NCBI RefSeq assembly: GCF_000091305.1
Contig: NC_013929.1
Location: 6,200,001-6,264,000 of the forward strand
Direction: 5' to 3'
DNA from: Streptomyces scabiei 87.22
GTDB taxonomy: Bacteria > Actinomycetota > Actinomycetes > Streptomycetales > Streptomycetaceae
Length of the DNA: 64,000 nt
Positions within the stretch are counted from its first letter, which is position 1. Each line of letters begins with the position of its first letter. This document shows positions 20,307 to 64,000 of the stretch, one piece after another. The position numbers were made by a program, and so were the translations under genes. The notes below the pieces were generated by a model. It was given only the letters and a program-made list of their open reading frames with translations. It was not told where the DNA came from and made no database searches.

Positions 20307-20705
20307 GGGGATGATCGGTTTCGACAGCGGATGTCGAGGCAGGGGAAGCGTGTCGAGGAAGCGGCCACGATCTCGTTAACCACAGGCCGAAAAAAATAAT
20401 CGCCAATTCCAAGAGCGATTCTCCGCAGCAGCAGTTCTCCCTCGCCGCCTGATCTCAGGTAGCGACGAGACTGCTCCTGCACTAAGGAGTGTCAGCCCGG
20501 GGCTGTTCCCGACCCGGATCCTGGCATCAGCTAGGGGACTAAACCTTGATCCCGGTCACGGGGTGAAGAGGGAAATCTAACAGTGACTGGGCCCGTCGGC
20601 GACTTGTTCGCGTGATCGCCGGGGCCGAGAAAATCACAGCGAACTGCACACGGAGAAGCCCTGGTTCCACACCGTTGGACGCGGGTTCGATTCCCGCCAT
20701 CTCCA
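20307..20705 (+). ncRNA. ssrA: tmRNA (10Sa RNA)
   Basis: The 5' end GGGGATG pairs with CATCTCC at 20,698-20,704 to form the tRNA-like acceptor stem. The T arm GCGGGTTCGATTCCCGC precedes it. The tag frame begins at the resume codon GCC (20,402) and encodes ANSKSDSPQQQFSLAA, then TGA at 20,450-20,452. This ends in the LAA degron typical of tmRNA tags. CCA is not encoded (ACAA follows the stem) and must be added. The position after smpB matches other Streptomyces. Confidence 0.95.
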
Positions 20706-20720
20706 CAATTCCCATGTGGG

Positions 20721-56343: not shown

Positions 56344-56946
56344 ATGAGCACAATGACGATGGGGACAATGGGCCTGACGGACCTGAACGACCTGAACGAT
56401 CTGCACGACATGAACGACATGAACGACCTGGCGGTGCTGACCGGGCGACCGGCCACGCGCTCCGGACTGGCGCTGGACCTGCCCGCCAGACTGCTGGACG
56501 AGGAGTTCGGCCAGAGCAGGGTGTGGCGCTTCGAGGACTTCGACTTCCCGGCCACGCTCACCCACGAGCCGACCCGCCGCTTCCTGCGGGACATGGGCCT
56601 GCCCGAGGACCACGGCTTCTTCCAGCTCGACACGGACATCCCGCTGCCGACGCTCGCCGAGTACCTGGCGGACACCGGCCGGCCCGCCGGCCCCGGCCGA
56701 CTCCCGGACAGAGCCGCCCACTTGATCCGCCTGGGTCACTTCGTCGAGGGCAGCAGCCTCGTCGTCGACGGCACCACCGGGGCGGTCCTCAACTGGAGCG
56801 AGACCGAGTCGACCCTCTGCCCCCTCGACGCCGACATCTCCACCCTGGCCTTCACCCTCTGGCTCCTGCACCGCGAGAGGCACGAGGGAACGGCCGCGGG
56901 CTGCTGGGTGGAGACCCTGCGCAACAGGGCCTGCGCGGGCCTCTGA
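56344..56946 (+). CDS. SUKH-family (SUKH-4-like) immunity protein
   Basis: A 200-residue soluble protein. Residues 60-200 match the SUKH-4 pattern seen in Streptomyces (ARLLDEEFGQSRVWRFEDFD, FLRDMGLPEDHGFFQLDTDI, VDGTTGAVLNW). The N-terminus holds tandem NDLNDLHDMNDMND repeats. SUKH proteins usually neutralise polymorphic toxins, but no toxin gene is adjacent. Start is ATG 56344 with GGGGGGA directly upstream. It is the last chromosomal gene before the integrated element. Confidence 0.7.
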   Translation: MSTMTMGTMGLTDLNDLNDLHDMNDMNDLAVLTGRPATRSGLALDLPARLLDEEFGQSRVWRFEDFDFPATLTHEPTRRFLRDMGLPEDHGFFQLDTDIPLPTLAEYLADTGRPAGPGRLPDRAAHLIRLGHFVEGSSLVVDGTTGAVLNWSETESTLCPLDADISTLAFTLWLLHRERHEGTAAGCWVETLRNRACAGL

Positions 56947-57005
56947 GCCCCCGCGGGCCCTGACGCCCGCCGGGCGCACGAGCACGGCCGACCGCCCACA
57001 CGAGA

Positions 57006-57035
57006 ACGGCCGACCACGGAGAAGCGGTCGGCCGT
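57006..57035. terminator. Hairpin beside the tRNA fragment
   Basis: A perfect 10-bp stem (ACGGCCGACC / GGTCGGCCGT) with a 10-base loop, 60 bases past the SUKH gene and 11 bases past the 3' end of the tRNA fragment. It may terminate the original tRNA gene (minus strand) and the SUKH gene (plus). Confidence 0.65.
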
Positions 57036-57045
57036 CACGTCGTAC

Positions 57046-57090
57046 TGGAGGCCGTGGCGGGAATCGAACCCACGTAACTCGCTTTGCAGG
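57046..57090 (-). other. 3' part of a tRNA gene, attachment-site core of an integrated element
   Basis: On the minus strand the sequence reads CTGCAAAGCGAG, a short variable region, GTGGGTTCGATTCCCGC (T arm), CACGGCC and TCCA. This is the anticodon loop (GCA, hence Cys-like; U73 also fits Cys) to the 3' end of a tRNA. The sequence before the anticodon loop cannot pair as an anticodon stem and no 5' half follows, so the gene is truncated. Integrating elements that use tRNA 3' ends leave exactly such a duplicate at one border. Confidence 0.75.
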
Positions 57091-57551: not shown

Positions 57552-58466
57552 ATGCCGTCGTTCCAGTTCTGCCTGTACGAGGTATCGGTGCGGCAATTCA
57601 TGAAGAAAGATAAGCGGCGCCTTGTTGCAGAGTTCAACTCGCGGCGGCATGACCTGTTCAAGAGTCTGCAAGATTTCATGAATGACCAACTGGGCACGAA
57701 AGGGGTTTCTCTCCAGAAGAGTGAGCATTACATTCGACTTAAGAAAATCGAAGACAATTCGAGAGTCCTGTGGTCGACCGTCGAGACGGGAAAATTCGGA
57801 AATCCGGGGATTGTTGTTGCGACGGACACTGGAGACAATGCGTTTGACATTAAAGCCACCGACGCCCCCACGTACCCTCTGCGGCAATGTTTTGTCGTCC
57901 CGCGTTCCGGTGAGTCTGCTATCTGGGCAACTGAGGTGATTGGTCAATCTACAGCCATCACCTCGCTCTGGACGCCGTTTAGTGACTGGTTCAAGGAAGA
58001 ATACGAATCTGATCGCCTCGTTGTCGATAGGGAGCCTCTTCAAAGTACTAGCGCATGGAACGCTTTCATTGATGAATCGGAACTGCAAGAGATTAGCTTC
58101 CTTGTGCGTGTCCGGGATTCTGATGGAGCGGTGGGCGTTCGCACGCAGGAGTACAAGGCGAAAAGCGGTCGTGGGACACGCCTTAAAAAGGACTGGATCC
58201 GAATGGCGCTTTCGCGCGATTTGCCACCGTCCGCAGTCTTCACGGCTACGGGTATTCCAGACCCCGATGAAGTGCACCTGAACATCGAGCGCGACGGAAA
58301 GAGCCGAACCATCGTGGTGGGCAGAATCTTCCCTCGCTTCATGTATCAGATCGAAACTCCGAACGGCCTTCGCCCCGACGACGCGACCTTCCAGCGGGAG
58401 GTGTTGTCAGAGGTAGGTGCTTCACTTGACCTGATGGGGGTCAGCCGCGGTGATTGGCAGGCGTGA
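57552..58466 (+). CDS. RexA-like soluble protein of a putative two-gene exclusion cassette
   Basis: A 304-residue soluble protein with codon use unlike the chromosome. I do not recognise a close family by sequence, but the order of segments recalls lambda RexA (279 aa). It has a hydrophobic beta start (FQFCLYEV), a YIRLKKIEDNS strand-turn near 60, and a QCFVVPRSGESAIWATEVIG segment near 112-131. RexA has FVEGDTIGFARTVFG at the equivalent place. STAITSLWTPFSDWF and LVVDREPLQST then parallel RexA's TSDLTDFL and VQIEPLMRGT. The next gene encodes a four-helix membrane protein, as RexB is. Start is ATG 57552 with GGGAGGA upstream; the frame opens 17 codons earlier without a ribosome site. Confidence 0.6.
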   Translation: MPSFQFCLYEVSVRQFMKKDKRRLVAEFNSRRHDLFKSLQDFMNDQLGTKGVSLQKSEHYIRLKKIEDNSRVLWSTVETGKFGNPGIVVATDTGDNAFDIKATDAPTYPLRQCFVVPRSGESAIWATEVIGQSTAITSLWTPFSDWFKEEYESDRLVVDREPLQSTSAWNAFIDESELQEISFLVRVRDSDGAVGVRTQEYKAKSGRGTRLKKDWIRMALSRDLPPSAVFTATGIPDPDEVHLNIERDGKSRTIVVGRIFPRFMYQIETPNGLRPDDATFQREVLSEVGASLDLMGVSRGDWQA

Positions 58467-58492
58467 CCTGAGGCTGCGCAGGCGGAGGGTGC

Positions 58493-59029
58493 ATGAGCGT
58501 CAAGTGGAGCGTTGCCAAGATCGCCGTTGCTCACTTCAAAACGTACTGGGATGCCAACAAGGATCGCCCTATGGCGTCCGACTATGTGACCTTCCTGGGC
58601 GTTCCTATATTGCTCGCGATCTTCGCAGGAATCATGACTCATGCGGGTCACTTTCATATTCGAGATGTGTCCAAGCTGATTGGTGGCATGGGTGTTTTTA
58701 CGGGGCTTTTGTTTGGGCTTCTAACGAATGTCTTCACGCTAAGCCTGCGCGTTCGTCGAGACGAGGGCCTAGATCCGGAGAATGAGGTCGTTAAGCAAGT
58801 GCGTGAACTGTTCTTCAATGTCTCCTGGGCGGTCGTAGTAGGGTGCGTCCTGATCACTGTGCTAGTGCTGGCCGCCGCGACGCATTCGACGACATCGGCG
58901 CTCGGATCACTTTGGACCGGACTGCTTACTTTTCTCTTTCTGCATCTTATGCTCACGATTCTCATGGCTCTTAAGAGGTTGTGGTATGCGCACGATAAAG
59001 TGGCCAAACTTCCAGCAAAGGAAGAGTGA
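58493..59029 (+). CDS. RexB-like four-helix membrane protein
   Basis: A 178-residue integral membrane protein with helices at about 31-50, 62-84, 107-129 and 139-161. A charged cytoplasmic loop lies between helices 2 and 3 (LRVRRDEGLDPENEVVKQVR), with a charged C-terminus (KRLWYAHDKV). RexB of lambda (144 aa) has the same four-helix plan with an Arg/Lys-rich central loop and a short charged tail. It follows the RexA-like gene by 26 bases on the same strand and shares its lower GC content, so both likely form one operon. By analogy it could be a channel opened by the soluble partner on phage infection (inference). Confidence 0.6.
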   Translation: MSVKWSVAKIAVAHFKTYWDANKDRPMASDYVTFLGVPILLAIFAGIMTHAGHFHIRDVSKLIGGMGVFTGLLFGLLTNVFTLSLRVRRDEGLDPENEVVKQVRELFFNVSWAVVVGCVLITVLVLAAATHSTTSALGSLWTGLLTFLFLHLMLTILMALKRLWYAHDKVAKLPAKEE

Positions 59030-59358
59030 CGGATTTTCCTGCTTTTAAGGTTGGCTGGGAATTTTCCGACCTCGCTGAGGTGGGCTCTGATCCCGTCATA
59101 GCGGCAGTGCTCATGGTGTCGCACGACAACTGAACATGCTTCGATCGGAACTACGTGAATCGAGATGGGGCCGGTACCTGACGCTCCCGCATTGTCGTCC
59201 TTGAGTGAGAAGCGTGTGGTAGCGGGTCGATATGGGGAGGTGCGACGTGCCGCGGGCTTAGCATCTCCTCCTTGGCCTGGCGTCGCCTCTCTCACGGAGC
59301 GTGGCAGGACCGTGCGACCCTTGGCAGTGAGCGATGGAGCAACGTGAGAGGAGCCGAA
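59030..59358. promoter_or_regulatory. Spacer between the RexAB-like pair and the GntR regulator
   Basis: About 330 bases. No hairpin with a T-run is evident after the membrane-protein gene. A minus-strand reading contains HHEHCRYDGIRAHLSEVGKF, which does not belong to a family I can name. The GntR promoter probably lies near 59,150-59,340. Confidence 0.35.
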
Positions 59359-59805
59359 GTGCCGGATGCTAGTCCGCGCGGAACCTACCTGGTCATTGCG
59401 GAGACGCTGCGAAACGAGATCCAGGCAGAGCAGGCTGGCGACACCTTGCCGTCAGAGGCCGACCTGATGGACTCGCACCACGTCTCCCGAAACACGATCC
59501 GCCGCGCGCTTAAGGCGCTCGAAGCTGACGGGGTCGTCGAGTCTGCTCCCGGGATCGGATGGCGCGTGGTCCGGGAAGGCGACCGCCGGTCGCTCGCGGA
59601 GCGCATGACGGACGTGATCAAAGAGGACTCACTCTCGGTAGGAGACACGTACCCGTCCGAAGCGAAGCTGTGTGAGCGGTTCGGCGCGTCCCGGACCGCC
59701 GTGCGCCGTGTTCTCGCCCACATGGAAGGAAATGGGCTGCTCGCCACCGTGCACGGCAAGGGGCGAACCGTGCGCGCACTCCCGACCCACACCGCCCGGT
59801 CGTAG
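59359..59805 (+). CDS. GntR-type regulator with two winged-helix domains, KorSA-like
   Basis: A 148-residue protein made of two GntR winged helices and no effector domain. The first (about 5-75) has LPSEADLMDSHHVSRNTIRR and the second (about 80-145) YPSEAKLCERFGASRTAVRR. The GntR protein KorSA of pSAM2 represses the element's transfer/activation genes; this protein is a candidate for the same role. Start is GTG 59359 with GAGGAG upstream. The HD gene follows after 11 bases. Confidence 0.75.
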   Translation: MPDASPRGTYLVIAETLRNEIQAEQAGDTLPSEADLMDSHHVSRNTIRRALKALEADGVVESAPGIGWRVVREGDRRSLAERMTDVIKEDSLSVGDTYPSEAKLCERFGASRTAVRRVLAHMEGNGLLATVHGKGRTVRALPTHTARS

Positions 59806-59816
59806 TCTTGGCCGCC

Positions 59817-60386
59817 ATGGGACTGACTGAGTGGGCATACACGCTCTCTGAATCGTTGCTTTCCGATCCGCTCCCGCGCCGGTGGGCGCACTCGCTCGGG
59901 GTTGCCGAGCGCGCTCGCTCCCTGAGCCCGATCCTGCGAGACGACGCCGAGCTGTTGGAAGCTGCCGCTGTGCTGCATGACATCGGCTACTCGCCGGCCA
60001 TCGCGGCCACAGGCTTCCATCCCCTGGATGGTGCACGGTTCCTCAGAGATCAGGAAGGTGCGGACGAACGGGTTGTTCGCCTTGTGGCCCATCACTCCTG
60101 TGCCTTGCTGGAAGCGGAGGAACGCGGACTTCGCCAGGAACTTGAAGGCGAGTTCGAGCTAGAGCGCCCCGACCTGGTCGACGCGTTGCTGTACTGCGAC
60201 ATGACGACGACGCCGGACGGGACGCAGACGACGCCGACCGAGCGGTTGGATGAGATCGTGCAGCGATACGGCCCGGACACGATCGTCGGTCGGTTCATTC
60301 AGCGCGCGGCCCCCGAGATCCATGCAGCGTCGAAGCGTGTTGGTGGTCGGATGACGGAAGTTTCTGTTGGCGGTCAGCCGACGTAG
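59817..60386 (+). CDS. HD-domain phosphohydrolase
   Basis: A 189-residue HD-superfamily protein. The metal ligands appear in order: His in RWAHSLGVAERA, the HD pair in AAVLHDIGYSP, His in FHPLDGARFL and HH in LVAHHSCALLE. Such proteins hydrolyse nucleotides or phosphoesters. The gene follows the GntR gene closely and is convergent with the Nudix gene; the two genes' 3' ends overlap by 13 bases. Start ATG 59817; a TTG three codons earlier is possible. Confidence 0.82.
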   Translation: MGLTEWAYTLSESLLSDPLPRRWAHSLGVAERARSLSPILRDDAELLEAAAVLHDIGYSPAIAATGFHPLDGARFLRDQEGADERVVRLVAHHSCALLEAEERGLRQELEGEFELERPDLVDALLYCDMTTTPDGTQTTPTERLDEIVQRYGPDTIVGRFIQRAAPEIHAASKRVGGRMTEVSVGGQPT

Positions 60387-60847
60387 GGCTCTTGGCGCGC
60401 GCCATCGAGACCGTGCCGGATTCGCAGCATCATCGAAGGGTGGATGTCCAACCCGTCAAGGTCCGCTGGATCAATCCAGCGGACCTCTTTCGATTCGCTG
60501 CTTGTGCGCAGAGAACCGCTGACCGGGTGGGCCCGGAAGCAGATGGAGAACTGTTGCCGGACCTCGCCGTTGTCGTACGCCAACACGTGTTGAGGGTCGG
60601 TGTAGAGCCCGACGATGTTGTCTATCTCAACATCGATACCGGTCTCCTCCCGGACCTCGCGTACGACCGTGTCCGCGATGCGTTCGCCGATGTCGTGGCC
60701 GCCACCGGGTAGGGCCCAAAGGTCGTTGTCCGTCTTGTGGATGAGCAACAGACGTCCCGCATCGTCGCGGACCACTGCCGTCACCGAGGGGACCACAGAG
60801 TTGGCCTTTGGGGCGTTCGGGTCGCGGAAGTAGTCAATCCGGCTCAT
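60374..60847 (-). CDS. Nudix hydrolase, possible pSAM2 Pif-like immunity factor
   Basis: A 157-residue Nudix protein with the complete box (GGGHDIGERIADTVVREV, then REETGID). It hydrolyses nucleoside diphosphates linked to another moiety. In pSAM2 a Nudix protein (Pif) blocks redundant transfer into a host that already carries the element; the location in a similar element makes that role plausible here. Start ATG 60847 overlaps the stop of the XRE gene by 4 bases, so the two are co-translated. Confidence 0.8.
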   Translation of the reverse strand: MSRIDYFRDPNAPKANSVVPSVTAVVRDDAGRLLLIHKTDNDLWALPGGGHDIGERIADTVVREVREETGIDVEIDNIVGLYTDPQHVLAYDNGEVRQQFSICFRAHPVSGSLRTSSESKEVRWIDPADLDGLDIHPSMMLRIRHGLDGARQEPYVG

Positions 60848-61614
60848 GAGTGCGTTCCCTCCCAATCGGCGGGCGAGGAGATCGGGCGGGCCGACTCCCA
60901 CACCTTCTCAACACTCTCGGCGTAGGCGTCGAAGAGTTCGCCTCCCGGGACGTGCCGCAGGTGGAGCACGGGGGACATGTAGGCGCCGACCCCGTAGAGA
61001 TGGCCGTTCGTCAGCATTTCGTCATCGGCCCGGTAGATCGAGTTGTAGAGCGTCGTGCCGTGCAGACGGAACTCGACACCAGGGAGTCCGAAGAGCGGGC
61101 CGTAGTTGATGAGGGCGTTCCGAATCTTGCCCGCCATCGCAGCGCCGATCCCTTCGTCCTCGCCGCGTACGGCCACGGCCGGGGACGTGGGCTCCCCCAA
61201 CATGAAGCGGATAGGCACTCCGTCGCCCGCCTTCTCCTTCACGATGCGGTGAAACGTCGCGTCCTCGGTGAGCCAGAACCCCGAGTACACCAGTAGGTCA
61301 AACTGTCGGGTTGCCTGGGCGTACAGGGTCGTCCAAAGGGTCTGCATGACGACGGATCGGTGCGGATAGAGCCTGACCAACTCCGCGTTGCCGGTGGCTG
61401 TCACTTCGGCCGATGTCCGTTCGTCCGGCCAGAGGTACGAGACTTCGCACTTCAAGAGTGAAGCTGTCGCGTACTGGAAGCGCCGATAAGGCTTGCGCTC
61501 GGGGTCGTTGATCCAGCGTTCGACCGTCTTGGCCGCGACACCGAGTCGTTCGGCGACCTCATCAAGGGTCAGGCCCAAGTCGACTATCGCGCCGCGCAGT
61601 CGCTCGTTGGCCAC
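60844..61614 (-). CDS. XRE-type regulator fused to a phospholipase-D-like domain
   Basis: A 256-residue protein. Residues 5-60 form a helix-turn-helix (LGLTLDEVAERLGVAAKTVE, then RWINDP). Residues 85-250 resemble a PLD-superfamily domain seen with XRE regulators in Streptomyces (LVRLYPHRSVVMQTLW, LLVYSGFWL, RLHGTTLYNSIYRADDEML). The HKD motif is not intact: His is followed by Gly-Thr-Thr rather than x-Lys. It may sense a ligand instead of cutting one. It is co-transcribed with the Nudix gene. Confidence 0.75.
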   Translation of the reverse strand: MANERLRGAIVDLGLTLDEVAERLGVAAKTVERWINDPERKPYRRFQYATASLLKCEVSYLWPDERTSAEVTATGNAELVRLYPHRSVVMQTLWTTLYAQATRQFDLLVYSGFWLTEDATFHRIVKEKAGDGVPIRFMLGEPTSPAVAVRGEDEGIGAAMAGKIRNALINYGPLFGLPGVEFRLHGTTLYNSIYRADDEMLTNGHLYGVGAYMSPVLHLRHVPGGELFDAYAESVEKVWESARPISSPADWEGTHS

Positions 61615-62329: not shown

Positions 62330-62599
62330 ATGAAGACCATCGTGACTGTTCAGGACGCTGTTACGGCGTTCGCCGACTTCATGGAGCCGACGGATGCGGA
62401 GTTGGACGCGATCGAGGTGGAGTCGCCGCTGATTCTGGCGGAGGTCGACCTGTTGGACGCGCAGATCATCACCCTCGACCACGCCCCGAACGTGGTGGAC
62501 GCCCGCCGGATCCGCCGGGCCCGGAACAAGGTGCTGGCCGCCCGCCGGGACCTGCTCAACCGCACCGCCGACGGCCGCACGGCGGGCGGTGCCGCGTGA
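62330..62599 (+). CDS. DUF6284-type small protein, first gene of the transfer operon
   Basis: An 89-residue helical protein (FADFMEPTDAELDAIEVESP, then VDARRIRRARNKVLAARRDL). Proteins of this type are typical of Streptomyces integrative elements ahead of the spd genes; the function is unknown. Its stop overlaps the next start (GTGA). Confidence 0.75.
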   Translation: MKTIVTVQDAVTAFADFMEPTDAELDAIEVESPLILAEVDLLDAQIITLDHAPNVVDARRIRRARNKVLAARRDLLNRTADGRTAGGAA

Positions 62600-63048
62600 G
62601 CGCCGCCGACCAGAACCTGACGGCCGCGCATGCTGAGGTGAAGGCGGAGATCGCGCGGACGGACACGAAGACCGGTCTGCTGCTGGCGTTCATCGGTGCG
62701 GTGCTGGCCGGTGCGTGGACGGTCGCCAAGGACACCCCGCTCAGCCTGCCCGCGTACATCGTGGGCGGGGCCGGGATGGTGGTGCTGGTCGTGGCGGCGG
62801 GTCTGCTGCTGCGGGCGGTGCGGCCGAACCTCAAGGGCCGGCACGGTTTCCCGCTGTGGGCGACGCTCACCGCCGAGGAGATCACGGCCACGCTCGCCGA
62901 GGTCGACCGCAGAGCGGACATCGCGGGTCTGTCGCGGCTCGCGGTCGCCAAGTTCACCGGCCTGCGCCGCGCCATCGACCTCACCTGTGCCGGCGGGGCG
63001 CTGCTCGCCCTCGCGGTGCTGATCGCTGTGGTGGGGGGTGCGGCATGA
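62596..63048 (+). CDS. Pycsar-effector-like membrane protein (DUF5706 type)
   Basis: A 150-residue membrane protein. An N-terminal amphipathic segment (AHAEVKAEIARTDTKTGLLL) leads directly into helix 1 (about 27-44). Helix 2 lies at about 53-73, a central soluble helical part follows, and a last helix lies near 128-146. The DxKTGxLLAFxGA start is the hallmark of Pycsar-system membrane effectors, which damage the membrane upon cyclic UMP/CMP. No cyclase gene is adjacent, so in this transfer operon it may instead have a housekeeping role such as spreading. It overlaps both neighbours. Confidence 0.65.
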   Translation: MSAADQNLTAAHAEVKAEIARTDTKTGLLLAFIGAVLAGAWTVAKDTPLSLPAYIVGGAGMVVLVVAAGLLLRAVRPNLKGRHGFPLWATLTAEEITATLAEVDRRADIAGLSRLAVAKFTGLRRAIDLTCAGGALLALAVLIAVVGGAA

Positions 63049-63248
63049 GTGCCAACCCGACTCCGCAGGGCTTCGCCCTGCTGCTGATCGTGCTGGGCGG
63101 GGTCGTCATGCTGACCGCCACCATCGGCACGGTCGTGACACACGAGCACGTGTGGAAGGCCGTGGTCGCGGCCGGCGGCGCCGTTCAGGTCGCCGGATGG
63201 CTGCTGCACGCTCGCCGTCTGCGCCGCCTGACGGGCGGTGCCCGATGA
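63045..63248 (+). CDS. Small two-helix membrane protein
   Basis: A 67-residue protein with two hydrophobic helices (GFALLLIVLGGVVMLTATIG and VVAAGGAVQVAGWLLHA) and a basic tail (RRLRRLTGGAR). No family is recognised. Four-base overlaps on both sides (ATGA) place it firmly in the operon; small Spd-type membrane proteins of conjugative elements look like this. Confidence 0.75.
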   Translation: MSANPTPQGFALLLIVLGGVVMLTATIGTVVTHEHVWKAVVAAGGAVQVAGWLLHARRLRRLTGGAR

Positions 63249-63571
63249 ACGGCCGGGTAATGCGGGCGCAGATCACGCAGCGCTGCTGCGGCACGACGGC
63301 CCCGGAGAAGACCGCCGGCCCGTGCTGGCAGTTGTTCGTGGTGATGACCGGCCGCGTCGACGACTGGCCCGTGTTCACGTGGCCGACGTCGGCGCCGGTG
63401 CCGCCGGTCGAGGAGCGGACGGCCGTGCTGGCGGCGCTCGGCTACCGGCTCTCCGACGACGCTGAGTGGGAGTGGTGCGAGGACGCCACCTCGGCCTACC
63501 ACCCGCACCCGGTACGCGTGTCCTTGATGGCTGCGGCGCAGGTCCGGCCGCTGGACGGGGGTTCCGTATGA
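63245..63571 (+). CDS. DUF6303-type small protein
   Basis: A 108-residue soluble protein (CWQLFVVMTGRVDDWPVFTW, LAALGYRLSDDAEWEWCED). This type occurs in Streptomyces integrative elements just ahead of spdB2. Function unknown. ATGA overlap with both neighbours. Confidence 0.75.
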   Translation: MNGRVMRAQITQRCCGTTAPEKTAGPCWQLFVVMTGRVDDWPVFTWPTSAPVPPVEERTAVLAALGYRLSDDAEWEWCEDATSAYHPHPVRVSLMAAAQVRPLDGGSV

Positions 63572-64000
63572 AGGGCAAGACCGTTCTTCCCGCCGTCGCG
63601 ATGACGGCGGTGTCCATGGTGCTCACCCTCGCCGTGGTCGTGATGTGGCTGGGCACGGCGATGCCGTGGCCGGTCGCGCTGGTCGTCGGTCTCGGCATCG
63701 ACGGCGGGTGGCTGGCGACCCTCGCCTACGAACGCCGTCTCGCCGCGCAGGGCGACCACAACCGCACGGTGACCGCCGTCGGCTGGTCGTTCGGCCTGGT
63801 CGCCACCGGTGTCCTGGTCGCGCACGCGCTCACCGCCGAGACTTCCGCCGGCGCGTGGCTGGCCGTGGCGTGGTTGCCGGTCGCGGCAAAGGCGCTGTGG
63901 CTGGTGCACGGACTGTGGGAGCGGACCGCGCTCACCCCGGCCGCTGTCGGTGCGATCCGGGGAATCCAGCAAGAGGCCCGCGACGAAGCGGCCGTGGCCC
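63568..64000 (+). CDS. SpdB2-like plasmid-spread membrane protein (DUF2637), 3' end cut by window
   Basis: At least 144 residues are visible. Four hydrophobic helices occur (TVLPAVAMTAVSMVLTLAVV, WPVALVVGLGIDGGWLATLA, VTAVGWSFGLVATGVLVAHAL, then WLAVAWLPVAAKALWLVHGL). This is the DUF2637/SpdB2 pattern. SpdB proteins help incoming conjugative elements spread through the septa of recipient mycelium. In related elements the TraSA DNA translocase follows. Confidence 0.8.
   Translation, partial: MKGKTVLPAVAMTAVSMVLTLAVVVMWLGTAMPWPVALVVGLGIDGGWLATLAYERRLAAQGDHNRTVTAVGWSFGLVATGVLVAHALTAETSAGAWLAVAWLPVAAKALWLVHGLWERTALTPAAVGAIRGIQQEARDEAAVA

Follow-up and report, generated by a model that had tools for sequence, protein, structure and literature searches.

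The half tRNA near the right end of the window (the whole 64,000-nucleotide stretch of Streptomyces scabiei 87.22 DNA analysed here) almost certainly marks the distal attachment site of an actinomycete integrative and conjugative element (AICE) of 16,421 bp that entered a tRNA-Cys(GCA) gene in its 3′ half. The element is delimited to the base, and the window shows only part of it. It adds one more member to a well-known kind, and the general phenomenon is textbook material. The repeats, the intact tRNA, the gene set, the element-free sites, a sibling insertion and remnants are all seen directly in the sequences.

On the minus strand, 57048–57090 reads as the 3′ half of tRNA-Cys(GCA); it comprises the anticodon (GCA), the T arm and the acceptor strand and stops one base beyond the discriminator. 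The first-pass annotation, made from the sequence alone, had placed a truncated Cys-like tRNA at 57046–57090 on this strand, with its break at the anticodon loop. The half tRNA is indeed present, but the exact repeat is the 43 bp of 57048–57090 and G000:C1:6273469–6273511 (57047 differs, and 57046 is a chance match), and the break is one base away from the loop: the repeat opens with the final base of the anticodon stem, three bases ahead of GCA. No whole tRNA was found there by ARAGORN, and Rfam gave only an 18-nt T-arm match to tmRNA, which is sub-threshold (14.9 versus 47 bits). The sole ARAGORN match in the window was an ordinary tmRNA gene at 20307–20706.

When the repeat pattern was searched with up to three mismatches in the whole genome (10,148,695 bases, one contig), two places were found, the window copy and G000:C1:6273467–6273509, and the reversed pattern, used as the control in the same search, was found in none: two copies in the whole genome are far beyond chance. 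They are in direct orientation and 16,421 bp apart. The second copy lies beyond the window, inside an intact tRNA-Cys(GCA) gene (G000:C1:6273469–6273541, minus strand). The target is not the sole tRNA-Cys(GCA) of the genome but a divergent isodecoder, since there are at least two further genes for this tRNA with another type of sequence.

The features on the window side are collected in Table 1; for the element beyond the window, adding 55000 to a coordinate of locus L003 gives the window coordinate. From the half tRNA, the gene order is two cargo genes, GntR, HD, Nudix (minus), HTH (minus), the PycTM-like gene with two transmembrane segments (2TM) and DUF6303, followed by the SpdB-like, PAPS-reductase-like and TraB genes, two replication-like genes, the excisionase and the tyrosine integrase. 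The GC content is 72.9% in the 2 kb to the left of the repeat, 67.2% in the whole element and 72.7% in the 16 kb to the right of the tRNA; within the element, it is 56.0% in the cargo region (the first 2 kb) and 68.8% in the remainder.

Table 1 Features in the window around the half tRNA and in the part of the element that the window covers
Feature	Position	Strand	Remark
SUKH-4 family gene, left flank outside the element, conserved tRNA neighbour	56344..56946	+	
Hairpin after the displaced tRNA tail, read as a presumed leftover native terminator	57003..57038	-	similar hairpin in L117 and L118
3′ half of tRNA-Cys(GCA), presumably the displaced native half; almost certainly the distal attachment-site copy	57048..57090	-	43-bp direct repeat, twin at G000:C1:6273469-6273511
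Cargo gene 1, 304 aa	57552..58466	+	no match in Pfam, NCBIfam, PADLOC, PHROGs
Cargo gene 2, 178 aa, four hydrophobic segments	58493..59029	+	Pfam below cut-offs; PHROGs holin E = 0.009
GntR-family regulator	59272..59805	+	
HD-domain protein	59808..60386	+	
Nudix-domain protein	60374..60901	-	presumably resembles pSAM2 Pra
Helix-turn-helix protein	60844..61614	-	Pfam matches below cut-offs; 93% identical in sibling L172
Small membrane protein matching PycTM (PF18967)	62596..63048	+	start trimmed by eye
DUF6303 protein	63245..63571	+	start trimmed by eye
SpdB-like spread protein	63568..64000, continuing past the window to 64431	+	83% identical to NZ_CP108827.1 DNA annotated spdB

The features of an AICE, namely a site-specific integrase, repeats at a tRNA 3′ end, a Tra protein of the FtsK/SpoIIIE type and an excisionase, are present. 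Integration at a tRNA 3′ end with direct repeats is usual for AICEs, if not universal, and their integrases are of the tyrosine or serine kind. The integrase here is 412 aa long, matches Phage_integrase (E = 4.4e-18) and shows the R, K, HxxR and GW...Y motifs, which we take to be catalytic; its gene stops 0.74 kb short of the intact tRNA. The excisionase matches TIGR01764 with 41.5 bits (cut-off 28.8). TraB passes the cut-off of PF01580 (FtsK_SpoIIIE; 28.8 versus 24 bits), matches phrog_1358 (E = 7e-22) and has the Walker A/B motifs; its score against the NCBIfam plasmid_TraB model is 19.6 bits, far under the cut-off of 800, and phmmer gave no PDB relatives at E ≤ 0.01. The known replication proteins of AICEs are of the RepSA, RepAM and Prim-Pol/RepPP types. 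Neither of the two replication-like genes reaches a Pfam cut-off: the first has no Pfam match and a weak hhalign match to an annotated primase/polymerase (probability 63%), and the second has a sub-threshold VapE-like match. The replication genes are, judging from these scores, not clearly of any known AICE type. The PAPS-reductase-like gene (L003:9428–10252, equivalent to 64428–65252 of the window) matched PADLOC SspD (E = 6e-14) and phrog_424.

Six relatives (L115–L120), picked for matching flanks on both sides, show the site without the element. In all six, the order is the xanthine-dehydrogenase (XDH)-like gene, SUKH-4, one tRNA-Cys and the MFS gene, with the next right-hand gene also kept, and queries with the integrase, TraB, Rep and cargo gene 1 gave no matches at E ≤ 1e-5 within 14–15 kb. 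The SUKH-4 match is less than 200 bp from the tRNA in L115 and L116 and 0.6–4.7 kb from it in the other four; the gap is 2.2 kb in L117 and 4.7 kb in L118. In G182 and G196, a single aligned piece covers bases 2–337 and 2–335, respectively, of the joined empty-site query, crossing the join at 300; G182 has a 62% integrase on another contig. In the genome with the best XDH match (G108; 98%), the MFS gene is recognisable only at its end. Because the flank after its tRNA is element-like (score 30.5 versus a shuffle maximum of 17.5), G108 is not a clean empty site, and a past occupant is suggested.

These results bear on the rest of the first-pass annotation, whose reading is supported in substance. 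The composition change that it saw to the right of the half tRNA (72.9% GC in the 2 kb on the left, 56.0% in the 2 kb on the right) is real; its description of the left-hand genes as core genes holds in so far as the XDH-like and SUKH-4 genes adjoin the same tRNA in all six relatives examined; and what it took for the border of an integrative and conjugative element does bound an AICE-type gene set. An intact tRNA with the same bases downstream (16.4 kb away), an integrase gene beside one border and relatives that are element-free with a single tRNA copy (six of six) had been named as things to look for, and all were found. Neither of the contrary outcomes that it had named, the lack of a downstream match and the presence of the region in all relatives with no second copy, was observed.

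The information on the tRNA tails and on the hairpins behind them may tell which of the two copies is native. After the window copy, CCA and then a hairpin follow; L117 and L118 have a similar hairpin behind their intact tRNA. In five genomes (G049, G181, G125, G087 and G109), BLAST pieces run from the window-copy hairpin (query 218–219) through the tRNA into the right flank. A comparison of 90-nt flanks gives weaker evidence: when their likeness to the flank of the window copy was scored, L118 alone of the six relatives exceeded the shuffle maximum (20.0 versus 17.5); L117 (19.0 versus 19.5), L115, L116, L119 and L120 did not. After the restored intact tRNA, CTA and then another strong hairpin follow, inside the element. 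The window copy is probably the displaced native tail of the chromosome, and the element would have supplied the other tail with a replacement terminator. By a hairpin rule of our own devising, terminator-like hairpins were found within 80 nt after the tRNA in 30 of 34 tRNA-Cys loci and 27 of 35 tRNA-Ser(CGA) loci with related integrases, as compared with 209 of 1600 random 80-mers from the same loci, a coarse control. The idea that elements always remove the encoded CCA from the restored tRNA was refuted: besides CCA, the tails on the element side can also be CTA, CTG, CAA or CCG, depending on the locus.

We propose, from sequence comparison, the following course for integration and for the later steps of excision, replication and transfer. 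The tyrosine integrase would recombine the tRNA 3′-half copy of the element with the chromosomal one, with the crossover most likely in the anticodon loop, at the beginning of the repeat. The chromosomal 5′ half would be joined to the 3′ half of the element, restoring an intact tRNA with an element-borne terminator behind it, and the native 3′ half would stay behind at 57048–57090, 16.4 kb away, together with its CCA and terminator. The excisionase together with the integrase would reverse the integration, and the FtsK-type TraB and Spd proteins would move the circle between mycelia.

The same site is occupied in another genome. The sibling insertion in G168 (L172) uses the same tRNA-Cys and has 43 identical bp at both ends, with 18,274 bp between the repeats and a left arm that closely resembles the present one. 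Its integrase (86%), Xis (73%, 55 residues), Rep1 (60%) and GntR-HD-Nudix-HTH block (82–93%) are similar to those of the present element, whereas its TraB is only 28% identical, neither cargo gene has a match there, and its length is 18.3 kb. The alike integrase and regulator block beside a divergent TraB represents a mosaic exchange of modules.

The flank pattern of the element type was found in 12 of 199 genomes. This pattern was rejected as proof of occupancy: in G186, the match is on a different contig from the tRNA-Cys, and among the other 11 genomes only three (G000, G114 and G168) have an integrase of at least 85% there. Eight genomes were selected because they have the element-type flank but no close intact integrase at that place. 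Two repeats were found in four of them, with 3.4 kb (L163), 4.1 kb (L168), 6.6 kb (L170) and 0.8 kb (L167) between the repeats and with the integrase partial, broken or undetected; the other four (L164, L165, L166 and L169) have a single repeat copy with up to 11 mismatches. Another locus, L171 (9 kb, far end outside), has the integrase, Xis and one repeat copy. L163, L171 and L172 are the same as L078, L028 and L021 of the integrase-relative set and are not independent of it. Several elements per site and their decay are known for AICEs (PMC9513070). The tRNA-Cys between the XDH/SUKH-4 block and the MFS gene is a reused site, documented here as empty, occupied and decaying.

The remnants raise the question of whether the present element is itself an AICE by descent that has decayed and is no longer mobile, a reading compatible with the proposed course except for its last steps. 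Four of the eight picked genomes do carry such remnants at this site, with two repeats 0.8–6.6 kb apart. Here, however, the integrase, excisionase and TraB frames are open, the integrase and TraB align with their relatives almost from end to end, and the two repeats agree in all 43 bp, which argues against decay; we consider loss of mobility unlikely.

A prophage in the tRNA, instead of a conjugative element, is very improbable. Related phage integrases do exist (1353 phage records match, each with a best place below 60% identity), and cargo gene 2 has a weak holin match in PHROGs (E = 0.009). Nevertheless, the whole interval gave no megablast match in 50,697 phage records, ten element proteins matched no head, tail or packaging family in PHROGs, and an FtsK-type TraB and SpdB are present. 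It is also hardly conceivable that the half tRNA is a pseudogene of the dispersed kind, with no relation to the interval. Genomes do contain tRNA fragments, as is generally known, but 43 identical bp in direct orientation, a composition jump at the break, an integrase at the far end, conserved outer neighbours and the same geometry in L172 all speak against it, and the half tRNA and the interval are missing together in all six flank-matched relatives examined.

Relatives of the integrase were sought by an integrase scan of genome contigs, from which 80 of 112 confirmed loci were kept: 35 with tRNA-Cys, 39 with other tRNA predictions only (mostly Ser CGA) and 6 with none. The tree, built by a quick search with 31 of its 73 inner branches weak, has 76 rows (75 of the 80 loci and the window; 70 labelled; matches shorter than 332 residues excluded). 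On it, a single change (support 99) accounts for the Cys label, and two changes are needed for Ser(CGA). Identity to the present integrase is 84–90% in 31 Cys rows and 56–81% in 34 Ser(CGA) rows. In the AU test, the labelled Cys rows alone held together gave p = 0.063; the starred branch of the tree consists of these 32 and one unlabelled row. The Cys-targeting integrases cluster beside the Ser(CGA)-targeting ones. Because close integrases with different tRNA targets were already noted by Ghinet et al. (PMC3218068, section 6), these groups are a further example; such neighbouring groups with different tRNAs are useful for studying target change in tyrosine integrases. In a draw of 199 genomes from the same genus, an integrase match at E ≤ 1e-140 was seen in 48; in six of these, own genome included, it reaches at least 85%.

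Among known systems, pSAM2 has tRNA-Pro as its target, and it also has GntR and Nudix regulators. The class named in the first-pass annotation, that of pSAM2, holds for an AICE with a tyrosine integrase in a tRNA 3′ end and is refined as to the target, tRNA-Cys. The pSAM2-type AICEs, surveyed by Ghinet et al. (2011, PMC3218068), share the tyrosine integrase, the insertion at a tRNA 3′ end and the FtsK-like Tra, whereas the present element differs in its target tRNA-Cys(GCA), its replication genes, which are assigned to no known AICE type, and its cargo. No AICE at tRNA-Cys was named in the literature search, and "cys" occurs zero times in the main texts of PMC3218068 and PMC9513070; we make no claim that AICEs at this tRNA are new. 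In PMC8388888, tRNA-Cys appears with an antisense RNA. A circular Streptomyces plasmid (NZ_CP108827.1; 13,544 bp) has the annotated order GntR, spdB, FtsK, primase/polymerase, DUF3631, HTH and integrase. Its SpdB and TraB are, respectively, 83% and 55.5% identical to those of the element; in contrast, it was deposited as a free circle and has no matches to the integrase, Xis and Rep of the element at E ≤ 1e-3.

The low-GC cargo pair (57552–59029) is the least-known part of the element and is hard to place. Cargo gene 1, which matched nothing in the four family libraries of Table 1, occurs in 3 of the 297 genomes of a family draw, own genome included, and cargo gene 2 adjoins it in all three carriers. 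One of the other two carriers is of the same genus and the other of the same family; in G417, the pair lies within 10 kb of AICE-type genes. The AlphaFold model of cargo gene 1, made from 3 sequences, has a mean pLDDT of 42. The pair could be an undescribed two-gene module of about 56% GC, kept together on AICE-like DNA and travelling with AICEs as a membrane-acting phage-defence or element-exclusion system, a speculative idea to which we give little weight.

The PycTM-like gene was also considered as a Pycsar effector, next to which such a defence system would encode a pyrimidine cyclase, and this was rejected: no cyclase was found nearby with the PF00211 model, which would miss a cyclase outside it, and the only PF00211 match of the genome is about 2.4 Mb away. 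A related 2TM gene (72%) stands beside SpdB and TraB in L185, and with this a role in transfer agrees better; the product is perhaps a membrane protein of the transfer module that a family model labels as defence. L185 (G000:C1:5955000–5974000) is a second AICE-like region of the same genome, located outside the window, in which TraB is 92%, SpdB 87% and the 2TM protein 72% identical to those of the present element.
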